A DNA stretch of 64,000 nucleotides from contig BAABWY010000001.1 of NCBI GenBank assembly GCA_040367435.1, positions 682,001 to 746,000 on the forward strand. The letters are read 5' to 3'. Under the pieces are notes generated by a model that did no database searches, was not told where the DNA came from, and worked only from the letters and a program-made list of their open reading frames with translations. Positions 9,532 through 62,507 of this stretch are shown here, in pieces (the stretch's first letter is position 1; each line of letters begins with the position of its first letter). This DNA comes from Hyphomicrobiales bacterium 4NK60-0047b. GTDB taxonomy: Bacteria; Pseudomonadota; Alphaproteobacteria; Rhizobiales; HXMU1428-3. The position numbers were made by a program, and so were the translations under genes.

Positions 9532-9735
9532 GAAGAAGGAGTTCAGCTCGTTTCGGGAAGAAGGACATGACGCCAGTGCGGTTGCTTGTGGGCAACCTGA
9601 AGCACAGATAAAAATGGCGTCCGGTGCACAAGATCAGCCCGAACGGAGCCTAGCGAGTACGGATTAGCTGATCGTCAAAAAAGCACCGCCCATCGGAGGG
9701 CCAGCTGCTTCGCAGCGGAATAGCCGTGAGAGAAA
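9532..9735 (+). repeat. Composite structured repeat, long copy with nested short hairpin
   Basis: The copy has the shared linkers in order: GAAGAAGGAG (9532), GGACATG (9563), GCCCATCGGAGG (about 9687) and AATAGCCGTGAGAGA (9719 onward). Stem 2 (GACGCCA 9569-9575 with TGGCGTC 9615-9621) holds a short hairpin element in its loop (GTGC-GGTTGC-TTGTGG-GCAACC-TGAA-GCAC, 9576-9605). Stem 3 (GGTGC with GCACC) is expanded by a further internal stem, GATCAGC with GCTGATC. Stem 4 is CAGCTGC with GCAGCGG-like arms around TTC. No coding potential is evident. Confidence 0.72.
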
Positions 9736-28780: not shown

Positions 28781-28800
28781 TTAGAATTATCTAACCTTAC

Positions 28801-28939
28801 GAAGAAGGAGCTCAGCCTTAGTCCGGTTGCTGGTGGGCAACTGAAGGACAAAAAAGGCTGAGGGACATGAGCTTTAGCAGCGCGGGTGCTTTGTGGGCAA
28901 CCTCAAGCGCCACTAAAAAGCAATAGCCGTGGGAGAAAA
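28801..28939 (+). repeat. Composite structured repeat with two nested short hairpins
   Basis: The linkers GAAGAAGGAG (28801), GGGACATGA (28862) and AATAGCCGTGGGAGA (28922) frame two stems. Stem 1 is CTCAGCCTT (28811-28819) with AAGGCTGAG (28854-28862) and holds GTCC-GGTTGC-TGGTGG-GCAAC-TGAA-GGAC in its loop. Stem 2 is GCTTTAG with a near-complement CTAAAAAGC and holds GCGC-GGGTGC-TTTGTGG-GCAACC-TCAA-GCGC. This copy lacks the middle stem 3 region seen in the longer copies. Confidence 0.75.
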
Positions 28940-37925: not shown

Positions 37926-38019
37926 GGTCTCTGCGTGTTGTTGGTGGGCAATCGAAGAGCACATAAGGAGACCGTCAACTCTTAAGGGCGGCAGCTTCGC
38001 TGCCATCACCCGTGAGAGA
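37926..38019 (+). repeat. Composite structured repeat, 5'-shortened copy
   Basis: The arms GGTCTC (37926-37931) and GAGACC (from about 37948) enclose a diverged short hairpin, TGTTGT-TGGTGG-GCAATC-GAAG. A further stem GGCAGC-TTC-GCTGCC leads into ATCACCCGTGAGAGAA, the 3' anchor of the composite family. The GAAGAAGGAG start is missing. Confidence 0.6.
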
Positions 38020-38045
38020 AATAAAAAAACAGCCCTAGAGACACC

Positions 38046-38157
38046 AAGAAGGAGTGACGCCACTCCGGCGTCAGGACATGACGCCAGAGGCGTCCGACGC
38101 AAGCGCCGCCCCTCGGAGACTCAAGTGTATAGCACTTGAAATAGCCGTGAGAGAGAC
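38046..38157 (+). repeat. Composite structured repeat, minimal intact copy
   Basis: This is the cleanest copy: AAGAAGGAG; stem 1 GACGCC-ACTCC-GGCGTC; linker AGGACATG; stem 2 ACGCC-AGA-GGCGT; stem 3 CCGACGC-AA-GCGCCG; linker CCCCTCGGAGACT; stem 4 CAAGTG-TATAG-CACTTG; 3' anchor AAATAGCCGTGAGAGAGA. No short hairpin is inserted, so it shows the ground state against which the expanded copies can be compared. Confidence 0.78.
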
Positions 38158-38161
38158 AAAC

Positions 38162-38299
38162 CTTCTAACCCGCAGGGTTAGTGCGGTTGCCTTGTGGGCA
38201 ACCTAAAGCACCAACAAAAACTTCTAACCCGCAGGGTTAGTGCGGTTGCCTTGTGGGCAACCTGAAGCACCAACTAAAATTTCTAACCCGCAGGGTTAG
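38162..38299 (+). repeat. Tandem 60-bp repeat overlapping the 3' end of degP
   Basis: Two units of 59-60 bp (38162-38220 and 38221-38280) each consist of TTCTAACCCGCAGGGTTAG, itself a hairpin, and a short hairpin element (GTGC-GGTTGC-CTTGTGG-GCAACC-TRAA-GCAC). A third copy of the first part (38281-38299) contains the degP stop codon, so the last codons of degP (SNPAG-stop) are part of the repeat unit. Confidence 0.82.
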
Positions 38300-39872
38300 A
38301 AGGCAATGCTACAAAACCAAACTCACCACGCCCGCGCGCGATAAAGAAAATGATGTTCTTTTTATTGGTTTTCTTCAAAGCTTCGACTTTCTTAACAACC
38401 TGATCAGCTGTTGAGACCTGCTCTTGCATCACTTCAACAATTACAAACCCTGGACGAAGTCCTTTTTCAGCAGCACGGCTATTTGGCGCAACTTTCGTAA
38501 TCACCACACCTTTAGTTTTCGCATCCAAACGATATTGACGGCGAAGATCAGGCGTAATGTTTGAAAGCGTCATACCAAGAACAGCACTCTCAGCAGGCTT
38601 GTCAGGTTGAGCACGGCCAGCAAGTTCAGGGTTATTCTTTTCAGCCGCTTCAAGGCGAGCAATCTTCACCTTAACTGTGACTTCCTTACCCTGACGTAGC
38701 AACTTAACATCAACCGTTTTTTCAACAGGTGTAAGTGCAACAATCTTAGGTAGCTCACGTGAAGATTTCACATAATTCCCATCAAATTCTAGTATAATGT
38801 CACTCGGCACAAAGCCAGCCTTCTCAGCAGGCCCACCTTTGGTAACACGAGAAACCAGCGCTCCCTCAGGTTTCGCCATGCCAAAACCTTCAGCAATTTC
38901 CGGCGTTACTTTCTGAATAAGAACGCCAAGCCAACCGCGGCGTGTCTCACCATATTTTTTTAGCTGAGAAACAACATTTACAACTGTGTCAGAGGGCACA
39001 GAAAAACCAATACCAATAGAGCCACCAGATGGAGAAATAATCGCTGTGTTCACACCAATAACTTCACCCTTCATATTGAAAAGCGGTCCACCAGAGTTAC
39101 CCTTATTGATCGCCGCATCCGTTTGAATAAATTCATCATACGGGCCTGAGTTAATATCTCTGTCTTTAGCTGAAACGATACCAACAGTCACAGTACCGCC
39201 AAGGCCAAATGGATTACCAATCGCCATCACCCAGTCACCTACACGCGCTTCAGATGATTTACCAAAAGGCACAGCACTTAATGGCTTTTTAGGAGAAACT
39301 TTTAGCAGAGCCAAATCCGTTTTGGCATCAACACCAAGAACTTTATCAACCTTAAGTTTTGTACCATCAACAAAATTTACAAAGATTTCGTCGGCGCCCT
39401 TAATCACGTGGTTATTGGTAACGATTAAACCACTTGTATCAATAACAAAACCTGACCCTAATGAACTAACACGTTGAGCCCGGTTATTTTTCTTATTTTC
39501 ATCAAAGAAGTCTTTGAAGAATTTCTCAAAAGGTAATCCTTTTGGCAATTGAGGAGGACGGCCCGGCGCCCCTCTTTTGTTAAATGCCGGCTTAACTTTC
39601 TGACTTGTTGAAATGTTCACAACCGCGTTTTGCAAACTATCAGCCAAATCAGCTAAAGTTCTATCTTGAGTATCTTTCGCATCTGCTTGTGCAATCATCA
39701 TTGCAGACAAGAGAAATAGCGTGATGCCAAAAAGAATTAGTGCATCTCTTAAATAGGTAGAGAAGCGAGTATCTTTAGTCTGCGCAATTGCAACAGCTCT
39801 ATTTTTTTGTGAAGCACGCATTAAACGAGCTCTTTTTTCTTGTGCTGATAAGTTTGAACGATTGCGAACCAT
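38283..39872 (-). CDS. degP: DegP/HtrA family periplasmic serine protease
   Basis: From ATG 39872 (GGAG 8 bases upstream) the protein is 529 residues: a basic cytoplasmic N-terminus of about 40 residues, a membrane anchor (LILFGITLFLLSAMMIA), the trypsin-like domain with the triad His (IVTNNHVIKG), Asp (DAKTDLALLKV) and Ser (AAINKGNSGGPLF), and two PDZ domains (GWLGVLIQKVTPEIAEGF and VLGMTLSNITPDLRRQY). It degrades or refolds damaged envelope proteins. The anchor instead of a cleaved signal peptide suggests a membrane-tethered form. It lies next to hflC and hflK, a common arrangement. The C-terminal codons come from a local tandem repeat. Confidence 0.95.
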   Translation of the reverse strand: MVRNRSNLSAQEKRARLMRASQKNRAVAIAQTKDTRFSTYLRDALILFGITLFLLSAMMIAQADAKDTQDRTLADLADSLQNAVVNISTSQKVKPAFNKRGAPGRPPQLPKGLPFEKFFKDFFDENKKNNRAQRVSSLGSGFVIDTSGLIVTNNHVIKGADEIFVNFVDGTKLKVDKVLGVDAKTDLALLKVSPKKPLSAVPFGKSSEARVGDWVMAIGNPFGLGGTVTVGIVSAKDRDINSGPYDEFIQTDAAINKGNSGGPLFNMKGEVIGVNTAIISPSGGSIGIGFSVPSDTVVNVVSQLKKYGETRRGWLGVLIQKVTPEIAEGFGMAKPEGALVSRVTKGGPAEKAGFVPSDIILEFDGNYVKSSRELPKIVALTPVEKTVDVKLLRQGKEVTVKVKIARLEAAEKNNPELAGRAQPDKPAESAVLGMTLSNITPDLRRQYRLDAKTKGVVITKVAPNSRAAEKGLRPGFVIVEVMQEQVSTADQVVKKVEALKKTNKKNIIFFIARGRGEFGFVALPSNPAG

Positions 39873-40277
39873 CGCATTTCTCCTAAAATCGTACATATGA
39901 ACGAACTTGAAAACTCTAAATTTGAAAGCAATAAGCGTCCCGCATCCATTCAACATGAGAAAATCTAAAATTGTTTATCTCTCTAGCTAACTTTTCAGCT
40001 CAAAAAACAAACAAAATCAGGTCTAATAAGTAAATAACAAGCAAATTAAGTGCAGCTAAGAACTTACACCCAAAAAGCTAAAACTCAAAATTTGAAAAAC
40101 TGAACTTGTGACGGCTCAATCACTTCATCTAATTAAGTAAACATTGCAAACACATTATATATAAGCCACTGAAACAAAGATACCAGATGTAAGTGCAATT
40201 ATTCGTGTAAACACTCACTTCATAGTGAGGGTATTTTAAGGCAAAACAAGAGATTAAGCCAAAACTTCACAAAGAAT
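39873..40277. other. Intergenic region between degP and DUF2065 gene
   Basis: About 400 bp, AT-rich. It should contain the degP promoter. I see no open frame, hairpin repeat or recognisable operator in it. A stem-like ACTCACTTCATAGTGAG stretch near 40210-40226 is the only small inverted repeat. Confidence 0.4.
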
Positions 40278-44775: not shown

Positions 44776-44835
44776 CCACGGATTTGCCATGAGAAAACCT
44801 AAAGCATCACGAAAAGAAATAGCTGTGAGAGAAAA
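44776..44835 (+). repeat. Degenerate composite repeat remnant
   Basis: Contains ACGGATTTGCCATGAGAAAACCTAAAGCATC-like remains of a short hairpin in pieces (GGATTTGC, then AACCTAAAGC), followed by GAAATAGCTGTGAGAGAAA, the 3' anchor of the composite family with one change. It ends directly at the stop codon of the receptor gene. Confidence 0.55.
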
Positions 44836-47909: not shown

Positions 47910-48061
47910 AAGGCTAAGTTTTGACTGAATTTACCAAAGAGGTCCAGCCAGTTTTGGTCACAAACCCGTGCTTACTGACAACTTATCCATATAAATTCAA
48001 CCATTCAGTTACCCTTTTGACAAACAACCCCTTTTTTTTGCCACGTAGGTACTCTATATTG

Positions 48062-48148
48062 AGTCTGCGGGAGAATTTCCGCTATGGCGATAAACTGTCA
48101 TCGTAATAAACCATTCGGACCCGGGGGCGGTACCCGGCGCCTCCACCA
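48062..48148 (+). ncRNA. ssrA: Two-piece tmRNA, acceptor piece (3' half, CCA-encoding)
   Basis: The segment ends GGCGCCTCCACCA (to 48148), where CGCCTCC pairs with GGGGGCG at the 5' end of the coding piece (48279-48285), forming a 7-bp acceptor stem with one G-U pair. Before it, CCGGG-GGCGGTA-CCCGG gives a T arm whose loop GGCGGTA departs from the canonical TTCRANY, as I recall for alphaproteobacterial split tmRNAs. Upstream are small hairpins (GCGG-GAGAATTT-CCGC). Its 5' end is estimated. A TTGACA sequence lies at 48017 but no good -10 box follows at the expected spacing. Confidence 0.82.
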
Positions 48149-48278
48149 AAAGCTCACAAAACCGCAAGAACTTAGTACATTGACTAAAATGTACATTACT
48201 TAATGATGAAGCATATTATTTACAACTTCACAGCAGGTAATAAGTGATTACAAACAGGCTAGCCTGTGGGCTTTTGAT

Positions 48279-48490
48279 GGGGGCGAAATAGGATCGACGA
48301 GGGTGTAAAGGGTGGTCTTTCGCTCGGCATGGTACCACCGCATCGGACCATTACAGTAGTTGCAAATGACAACTCTGCTCCAGTTGCTCAAGCTGCTTAG
48401 TAAGCGGTGACGACAACTGAAATAAACTCCTAGTCGGTTAAGCTCGGCTAGGCGCGGTTTGGAGAGCACCGGGCAACAGAAGCTCTCCAT
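48279..48490 (+). ncRNA. ssrA: Two-piece tmRNA, coding piece (proteolysis tag ANDNSAPVAQAA)
   Basis: The 5' end GGGGGCGAAATAGGATCGACG is the conserved tmRNA 5' tRNA-like sequence. The resume codon GCA at 48362 opens the reading frame ANDNSAPVAQAA with stop TAG at 48398-48400; ANDN is the usual alphaproteobacterial start and AA the ClpX-recognised end. The piece closes with GGAGAGC and GCTCTCC arms near 48460-48490. The gene is circularly permuted: the acceptor half lies upstream, separated by about 130 bases that are removed on maturation. sspB, the ClpXP adaptor for tagged proteins, is the next gene. Confidence 0.92.
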
Positions 48491-48657
48491 TAGTTATTGA
48501 AAATAAATAACTATCAAACAGGCATTTTTTCTGCTTAAATTGATAGATAAAACAACTTTTTATGACAAAATAGATTTTAAGTAACTTAATAGATCTAAGG
48601 CAAGATAGATCTAAGACAAAAAATTTAAGACACTAAAAGAAAGAGGCCTTACCGGTC

Positions 48658-62350: not shown

Positions 62351-62507
62351 GAAGAAGGGAGTGCTCCACTGAGGAGCACGGACATAGCGCCCTGCTTAGG
62401 GCGCCCGGCGCAAGCGCCGCCCCCTCGGAGGCCCAAGCGCTTCAACACGGATGCATAGTGGGCATCTGAAGTGCAAAAAAGCGCTTGAAATAACCGTGAG
62501 AGAGAAA
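62351..62507 (+). repeat. Composite structured repeat with short hairpin nested in stem 4
   Basis: Order: GAAGAAGGGA; stem 1 GTGCTCC-ACTGA-GGAGCAC; linker GGACATA; stem 2 GCGCCC-TGCTTA-GGGCGC; stem 3 CCGGCGC-AA-GCGCCG; linker CCCCCTCGGAGGCC; stem 4 CAAGCGCTT (62434-62442) with AAGCGCTTG (62479-62487); 3' anchor AAATAACCGTGAGAGAGA. The stem 4 loop holds CAC-GGATGC-ATAGTGG-GCATC-TGAA-GTG and an A-run. In the copy at 38046 the same loop is only TATAG. Confidence 0.8.

Follow-up and report, generated by a model that had tools for sequence, protein, structure and literature searches.

The orientation of E1, a repeat of about 115 nt whose copies, when read and aligned, consist of four hairpins (S1 to S4) set between conserved linkers, follows replication, and this is the strongest clue to a role at the level of DNA. 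We give roughly even chances to the reading that E1 belongs to the non-autonomous interspersed repeats of REP or IS200-end type and that it is both recognized and processed in the form of a folded single strand, probably single-stranded DNA exposed at replication forks. A second proposal is offered only tentatively: the hairpins may be exchangeable cassettes, in which case single-strand recombination at the fork would swap whole hairpins between dispersed, replication-oriented copies, using the linkers of 7-12 bases as homologies, so that the structure stays fixed while the sequence turns over.

The window, that is, the whole stretch of 64,000 nt analyzed here, comes from a draft genome of Hyphomicrobiales type (G000; 3.47 Mb in 26 contigs). 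At 38044-38156 the order of the element is CAAGAAGGAG, S1, GGACATG, S2 and S3, GCCCCTCGGAG, S4 and the GAAATAGCCGTGAGAGAGA tail. E1 and its two companion hairpins, E2 and E3, occupy the following places.

9532-9735, plus strand: full copy of E1 with E2 inside the S2 loop and E3 inside the S3 loop (from tail, core and ortholog comparison)
9632-9685 (end approximate), plus strand: E3 hairpin (GATCAGCCCGAACGGAGC..GCTGATC) inside E1 (from ortholog comparison and pattern reading)
28800-28938, plus strand: E1 variant without the core linker, with E2 inside S1 and also within the S4 region
37926-38025, plus strand: degenerate E1-like variant ending CACCCGTGAGAGAAA, read directly from the sequence
38044-38156, plus strand: compact full copy of E1 (head 38044-38054, S1 38055-38073, GGACATG 38074-38080, S2/S3 38081-38107, core GCCCCTCGGAG 38108-38118, S4, tail 38138-38156)
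38163-38300, plus strand: two tandem E2-type hairpins (GGTTGC..GTGGGCAACC), each with TTCTAACCCGCAGGGTTAG before it
44776-44834, plus strand: E1 remnant, a tail with a decayed body, unrecognizable in the orthologous interval of the relative G003
62351-62505, plus strand: full copy of E1 with E2 inside the S4 loop

An earlier note on this DNA had given the linkers and complementary stems at 38044-38156 correctly, apart from the first linker, which reads CAAGAAGGAG. The same note had listed six places as sharing the linkers in one order. All four linkers are present, with mismatches allowed, in three of them (9532-9735, 38044-38156 and 62351-62505), whereas the copy at 28801 lacks the core, that at 37926 is degenerate and that at 44776 is a remnant. 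Just past the E1 and E2 copies, at 38283-39956, lies a gene for a trypsin-like protease with PDZ domains, which is conserved in all eight genomes of the genus.

These copies are far more numerous than chance would provide. The 19-base tail has five matches in the window at three or fewer mismatches against 0.01 expected, and the core three at one mismatch or none against 0.24 expected. Throughout the genome the tail has 91 matches at two or fewer mismatches, and its reversed pattern has none. The earlier note had proposed a search with a covariance model; such a model (R1) gave at least 150 matches in G000 and further matches in other alphaproteobacterial genomes. Compact copies span 101-137 nt.

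The companions are simpler. E2 is a hairpin of about 40 nt, GYRC-GGTTGC..GCAACC-TGAA-GYRC, in which the outer and inner stems vary; it occupies 19 distinct sites in the 64 kb of the window (for example 9743, 12060, 38185, 51106 and 55880), distributed 18:1 between the strands. E3 has a conserved loop, CCCGAACGGAGC..GAGTACGGAT, and is nested in the S3 loop of E1 at window position 9632 and also at loci L018, L050, L052 and L211. Some inserts are specific to one species: at window position 9718 the S2 loop contains E2 in G000 only, and at L020 the S3 loop contains E3 in G003 only. In the G003 ortholog of the copy at 9532-9735, E3 is present and the E2 insert is absent.

How is E1 oriented in the genome? 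Among the matches scored with R1 in G000, 147 of 150 lie on one strand per contig, and each of the three minority copies starts within 320 bp of a majority copy. In G003 at least 150 matches were scored, of which 136 were listed, and 132 of these 136 have the main orientation, as do 42 of 45 in G004. Taken together, eight of the ten minority copies in these three genomes have a majority copy as a head-to-head partner no more than about 220 bp away. In 20 stretches of 8 kb chosen independently of E1, the sign of the AT skew predicts its orientation in all 20 and GC skew in 17. Around the E1 copies themselves, AT skew agrees on 11 of 11 contigs, and GC skew is clear only on C1 and C2, being near zero or mixed on the other nine; on C3, C5, C6 and C7 it is about zero while AT skew is strong. 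The single 16S gene found is on the strand opposite to the sense of E1. From this position and from the location of E1 on the A-rich strand, the sense of E1 would be the strand that lagging-strand synthesis produces. The polarity is not accounted for by gene direction, as the open reading frames of at least 150 amino acids near E1, which are mechanical calls and not annotated genes, are almost evenly divided (147 in the same direction, 136 in the opposite one).

Strict polarity is not universal, since at one locus of a more distant genome (L278; genome G255, family f44) seven copies of the E1 family alternate in orientation over 5 kb, with head-to-head partners spaced by about 30 bp in three pairs and a tail-to-tail neighbor at 199 bp. 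When this locus was read for a transposase, the genes there proved to be Ro60-like and RtcB: a Ro60-like gene (TROVE, vWA_Ro60) and an RtcB RNA ligase gene, at 341-1933 and 3094-4494 of L278, lie amid the seven copies, whether by chance or through a link to RNA repair.

The folding of E1 was studied in an alignment (A1) of 48 of 57 compact copies parsed from 60 stretches, made by MAFFT without structure and given a hand-written structure; the nine omitted copies comprise three with nested inserts, two short ones, two tandem duplicates and two that fail a filter. Standard pairs occupy 94.4% of its 1376 stem cells, and 20 of the 29 base pairs have changed on both sides. The covariation score is 0.475, whereas shuffles score 0.164 ± 0.009 and structures with slid partners no more than 0.067. 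The earlier note had made its reading depend on covariation, and covariation turned out to be strong. S2 is either a plain stem or, in 18 of 48 copies, an outer and an inner stem with an internal loop between them, and S4 consists of GGC followed by an inner stem, with an AATA bulge on the 3′ side ahead of GCC.

In addition to the stems, two single bases, x before and y after the loop, pair with each other and bracket a C[T/G]C loop. The base y belongs to a GyAG motif at the foot of S4, of which GGAG is the majority form and GTAG the minority form. Among 26 distinct E1 copies of other families or orders, namely those that fit a motif search pattern, x and y form a Watson-Crick pair in 24, with all four pair types represented; shuffles gave a mean of 8.2 and a maximum of 17 in 10,000. 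The loop also varies together with the tail in these distant copies: all 14 copies with loop ..GCG have the tail GAG[C/T]GA, and all 12 with loop ..TCG have the tail GAGAGA. This argues that the C[T/G]C loop pairs with a G[A/C]G in the tail, which would make a pseudoknot across S4. In two close species loop ..TCG is accompanied by tail A in 76 of 76 and 71 of 71 copies, and x and y are Watson-Crick partners in 69 and 65 of these. A register suggested by RNAalifold, CTCG:TGAG, was dropped, as the other one covaries between families.

Such a structure could belong to an RNA, and it is conceivable, if rather unlikely, that E1 is a structured RNA, a 3′-UTR or small RNA element kept by selection on transcripts, its polarity being a by-product. 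Strong covariation that includes the pseudoknot would suit this, and so would the predicted RNA folds of four copies (z -2.5 to -4.9). Within the genus, an excess of G.T over A.C wobbles would favor folding of the sense strand (31:15 in each of two close species, counts that are dependent through shared copies; 32:10 in A1), and the ratio is 18:26 in the distant copies. The genomic setting can be read both ways. By the open reading frames around them, 112 tails comprise 32 at convergent, 60 at tandem and 4 at divergent sites, 6 inside reading frames and 10 at stretch edges, and all adjacent pairs of reading frames in the same stretches comprise 49 convergent, 146 tandem and 28 divergent ones. 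E1 is thus rare between divergent genes, and many copies could be transcribed from the upstream gene; however, at 29 of 96 classified sites it is antisense to both flanking genes. The orientation of E1 tracks base skew and not genes, with the near-even division of reading frames noted above, and DNA of both strands folds too (z -2.9 to -6.5 against shuffles, three copies). Rfam 15 speaks in the same direction, and the earlier note, too, had turned to Rfam: no family matches E1 at the gathering score, the window yielding only two tmRNA models, and one E1 copy and five distant loci gave only chance scores at a permissive E-value. A permuted alphaproteobacterial tmRNA is located at 48028-48491 of the window.

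Polarity might also arise by purging: copies would appear both ways, and those with the folding strand on the lagging-strand template would stall forks or be deleted. The hairpins of E1 are stable, and its sense, being on the A-rich strand and not on that of the 16S gene, would lie off the lagging-strand template, as purging predicts. According to the passages available of PMC12306157, however, REPs of Escherichia coli occupy both strands in similar numbers, in contrast to the one orientation of E1 per contig. Fork toxicity hardly explains why E2, a single hairpin of about 40 nt, and E3 are equally polar (E2 9:0 in the 20 stretches chosen independently of E1, E3 17:0). Minority copies, too, have survived next to a majority copy, although the palindrome that the two form together should be more harmful. 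We regard purging as distinctly unlikely.

The distribution of E1 was surveyed with R1 on the best nine candidates per genome. At E ≤1e-3 there are matches in 57 of 397 genomes from the order and in 31 of 141 genera, all 8 genomes of the genus being positive; many of the positive genomes outside the genus have only a few weak matches among these nine. At E ≤1e-6, again among the best nine, a sample of 385 genomes from the class contains 6 positive ones, G000 being one of the six. A tail of the exact type (at most one mismatch) is present in 11 of 41 relatives and absent from G005 of the genus. Among the carriers whose tail is preceded by the core are Methyloligella, Rhodomicrobium, Cohaesibacter, Devosia and Rhizobiaceae MAGs, and the tail match in a Cyanobacteria MAG has no core upstream. 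BLAST of one E1 copy gave no match in a phage collection, and one E1 copy with one distant homologue gave none in a plasmid collection. Tails on viral contigs (32, of 15 bases) were taken as chance occurrences, since none of the 32 has an E1 core or head upstream.

Polar, intergenic and with conserved linkers, E1 might serve the replication or segregation machinery as functional sites, each selected in place, in the manner of KOPS, Chi and primosome assembly sites. In the close relative G003 (Methyloligella sp. DHS20C07, of the same genus), 54 of the 112 tail sites read have an orthologous interval in the stretches used; by loose criteria, at least two of three E1 parts are present in 40 of them, one part in 8 and none in 6, a degree of retention that would agree with such a function. 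Against it, copy number seems to vary in the genus (45 matches in G004 and at least 150 in each of G000 and G003, a comparison biased by R1 having been built on G000 copies), decayed copies and nested insertions are common, and the known polar sites are short. Selection of each copy in place therefore appears improbable.

Do the hairpins move between copies? In the 48 aligned copies the stem alleles of S1 to S4 and the x:y pair are in linkage equilibrium, mutual information being within the shuffled range for 10 of 10 combinations, and stem alleles recur across the genome. Of the 54 intervals, 26 could be parsed one to one in both species, one of them (L053) being of doubtful orthology on account of a tandem cluster. 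In these 26 pairs the linkers differ by 2-7% (tail 7/390, GGACATG 10/182, core 21/312, head 19/260) and the hairpins, inserts included, by 29-47% (S1 183/531, S2 and S3 314/1065, S4 390/826), a contrast that is partly built in because the parser demands near-consensus linkers in both species. When only the G000 copy had to be parsed (39 intervals), identity was 82-87% for linkers and 57-70% for hairpins; where G003 was unparsable (13 of these intervals), tail, core and S1 were 51%, 60% and 60% identical, so that these two linkers fared no better than S1. The contrast being weaker in this control, the case for exchange rests on single examples.

A clear block change with another hairpin nearly intact is seen in 5 of the 26 one-to-one orthologs and in L059, which is outside them. 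In L034, at 12287, S1 reads TACTGCCC.. in one species and GTGCTCT.. in the other, with 2/28 edits in S2 and S3 and 1/18 in S4. At L011 (at 7563), at L046 and at window position 9718, S1 is replaced and S2/S3 are also changed, S4 having 0-1 edits, and at L066 it is S4 that is swapped, for a longer composite, with one edit in S1 and none in S2 and S3. Nine S1 pairs were chosen because they differ (L011 and L022 also differ and were omitted for their inserts): in seven of the nine, the two alleles are 8-13 edits apart, yet each has a nearer counterpart, at 0-4 edits, elsewhere in its own genome; the remaining two pairs differ by 5, random S1 pairs averaging 7.8. This likeness favors exchange with other copies of the same genome over local template switching, in which one arm of a quasi-palindrome is copied onto the other. 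Such switching is known to create and repair hairpins (as described in passages of PMC8794818), yet, as neither the x:y pair nor the loop-tail pseudoknot is formed by the arms of a simple hairpin and the replacement stems resemble alleles elsewhere in their own genome, it was rejected as the sole cause of the block changes and is improbable as the source of the covariation.

Linkage equilibrium, recurring alleles and block replacement together indicate that stepwise compensatory mutation does not account for all of the variation in the stems. The reading of the earlier note, a selected structured RNA or single-stranded DNA, is supported as regards a folded single strand with pairing-conserved stems, and it needs amending where stems were replaced as blocks. 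Tandem arrays of E1, in which the unit of about 110-165 bp is the element with its flank, are found at L059, L043, L056 and L064; L059 has three units compared with two in the close relative.

Returning to the reading of E1 as a REP- or IS200-end-like repeat, the 3′ part of the element resembles the arrangement of guide, hairpin and cleavage site in IS200/IS605 ends and REPs, having the C[T/G]C loop first, then G-y-A-G, the hairpin with its bulge and the G[A/C]G of the tail. This arrangement together with the polarity favors handling of folded single-stranded DNA at forks. The linkers would serve as short homologies, either for a candidate single-strand nuclease or recombinase or for simple annealing, on the lagging-strand template, of pieces of single-stranded DNA. 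Pieces, or the nascent lagging strand, would anneal at the linkers on the lagging-strand template, which would fit both the strand and the exchange. Joining on one arm of the fork only would give new copies a single polarity, and the hairpin between two linkers could be exchanged for that of another copy. E2 and E3 may have spread by the same route, landing in hairpin loops. Several observations count against this explanation, among them the lack of a Y1 transposase and of a reverse transcriptase set out below, the alternating copies at L278, the weaker contrast of linkers and hairpins in the control and the wobble ratio of the distant copies. Another is that no clean empty site and no clear target duplication were seen among 14 aligned G003 intervals without a tail, several of which hold partial E1 or E2 and some of which were shortened by their anchors. 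A further one is the strand: IS200-type elements act on the lagging-strand template, and the sense of E1 would be the opposite strand.

If correct, these views have consequences beyond E1. A large repeat family oriented almost perfectly with replication would record, in nature, how single strands are processed at forks. Should whole hairpins be swapped as blocks, base-pair covariation can arise by recombination between repeats, and as covariation is the usual proof of selected RNA structure, block exchange, if true, matters for the discovery of structured RNAs. E1 points either to a new single-strand recombinase or to ordinary fork annealing of surprising precision.

Among known systems, the mosaic elements RIME and ABC of the Rhizobiaceae come from the same order as the host of E1 and are likewise intergenic, palindromic and mosaic; E1 is likened to RIME by description, the negative plasmid BLAST mentioned above being a weak test of the matter. 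A search of open-licence papers brought up neither a multi-hairpin repeat with replication polarity nor an exchange of hairpins. Covarying candidate structured RNAs have been described as Rhizobiales-1, Rhizobiales-2 and STAXI, two of them from the same order and STAXI being discussed as possible single-stranded DNA (passages of PMC2864571); Rhizobiales-1 has no Rfam number in those passages and so falls outside the Rfam comparison, in which E1 has no match beyond chance. The CGTC-tagged palindromic repeats are alphaproteobacterial, lack an associated transposase and form head-to-head dimers (in the part available of PMC3733652), but they are single hairpins of 8-9 bp with a CGTC tag, whereas E1 has four hairpins, the G-y-A-G motif and a pseudoknot. 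A derivative of a retroelement or group II intron is not indicated, the reverse transcriptase domain RVT_1 (PF00078) having no match in G000.

In the ends of IS200/IS605 elements such as IS608 and ISDra2, a hairpin is flanked on its 5′ side by a guide and on its 3′ side by a short site, the two pairing with each other, and these elements are coupled to the replication fork (passages of PMC6006769). Unlike them, E1 has neither a transposase gene nor a pair of left and right ends that could be found; a tnpA gene between hairpin ends is lacking, as the transposase domain Y1_Tnp (PF01797) has no match in G000 and compact E1, at 101-137 nt, is too short for a gene. PF01797 is also absent from six of the seven other genomes of the genus. 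Two Y1-type transposase genes are present in G003 (contig C1, 11499-15370) and in no other of the eight genomes, and no E1 match lies within the roughly 3 kb read around each.

The closest likeness is to REPs and REPINs with their RAYT (TnpA-REP) transposases, of the GTAG superfamily, which like E1 are intergenic and occur in many copies. They have a tetranucleotide such as GTAG or GTGG at the foot of a bulged hairpin, to which the GyAG of E1, mostly GGAG, may correspond, and their guide logic resembles IS200/IS605 ends (passages of PMC8266576). REP dimers are mostly head to head and REPs lie mainly in unidirectional or convergent spaces, traits common to E1 (PMC3733652, in its available part), and REPIN spacers carry compensatory changes (as excerpted from PMC3116915). 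E1 differs in its four hairpins, in the covariation of y with an upstream x, in the replacement of hairpins as blocks and in the lack of a Y1 transposase in G000. Two defining features of REPs, a palindrome of about 20-65 nt (E1 has four hairpins in about 115 nt) and a Y1 transposase in the genome (PF01797 matches in one of eight genomes of the genus), were looked for and are lacking, and E1 is therefore filed as a REP-like interspersed repeat and not as a REP. E1 would thus be a variant of the REP-like repeats, and the exchange process is possibly new.
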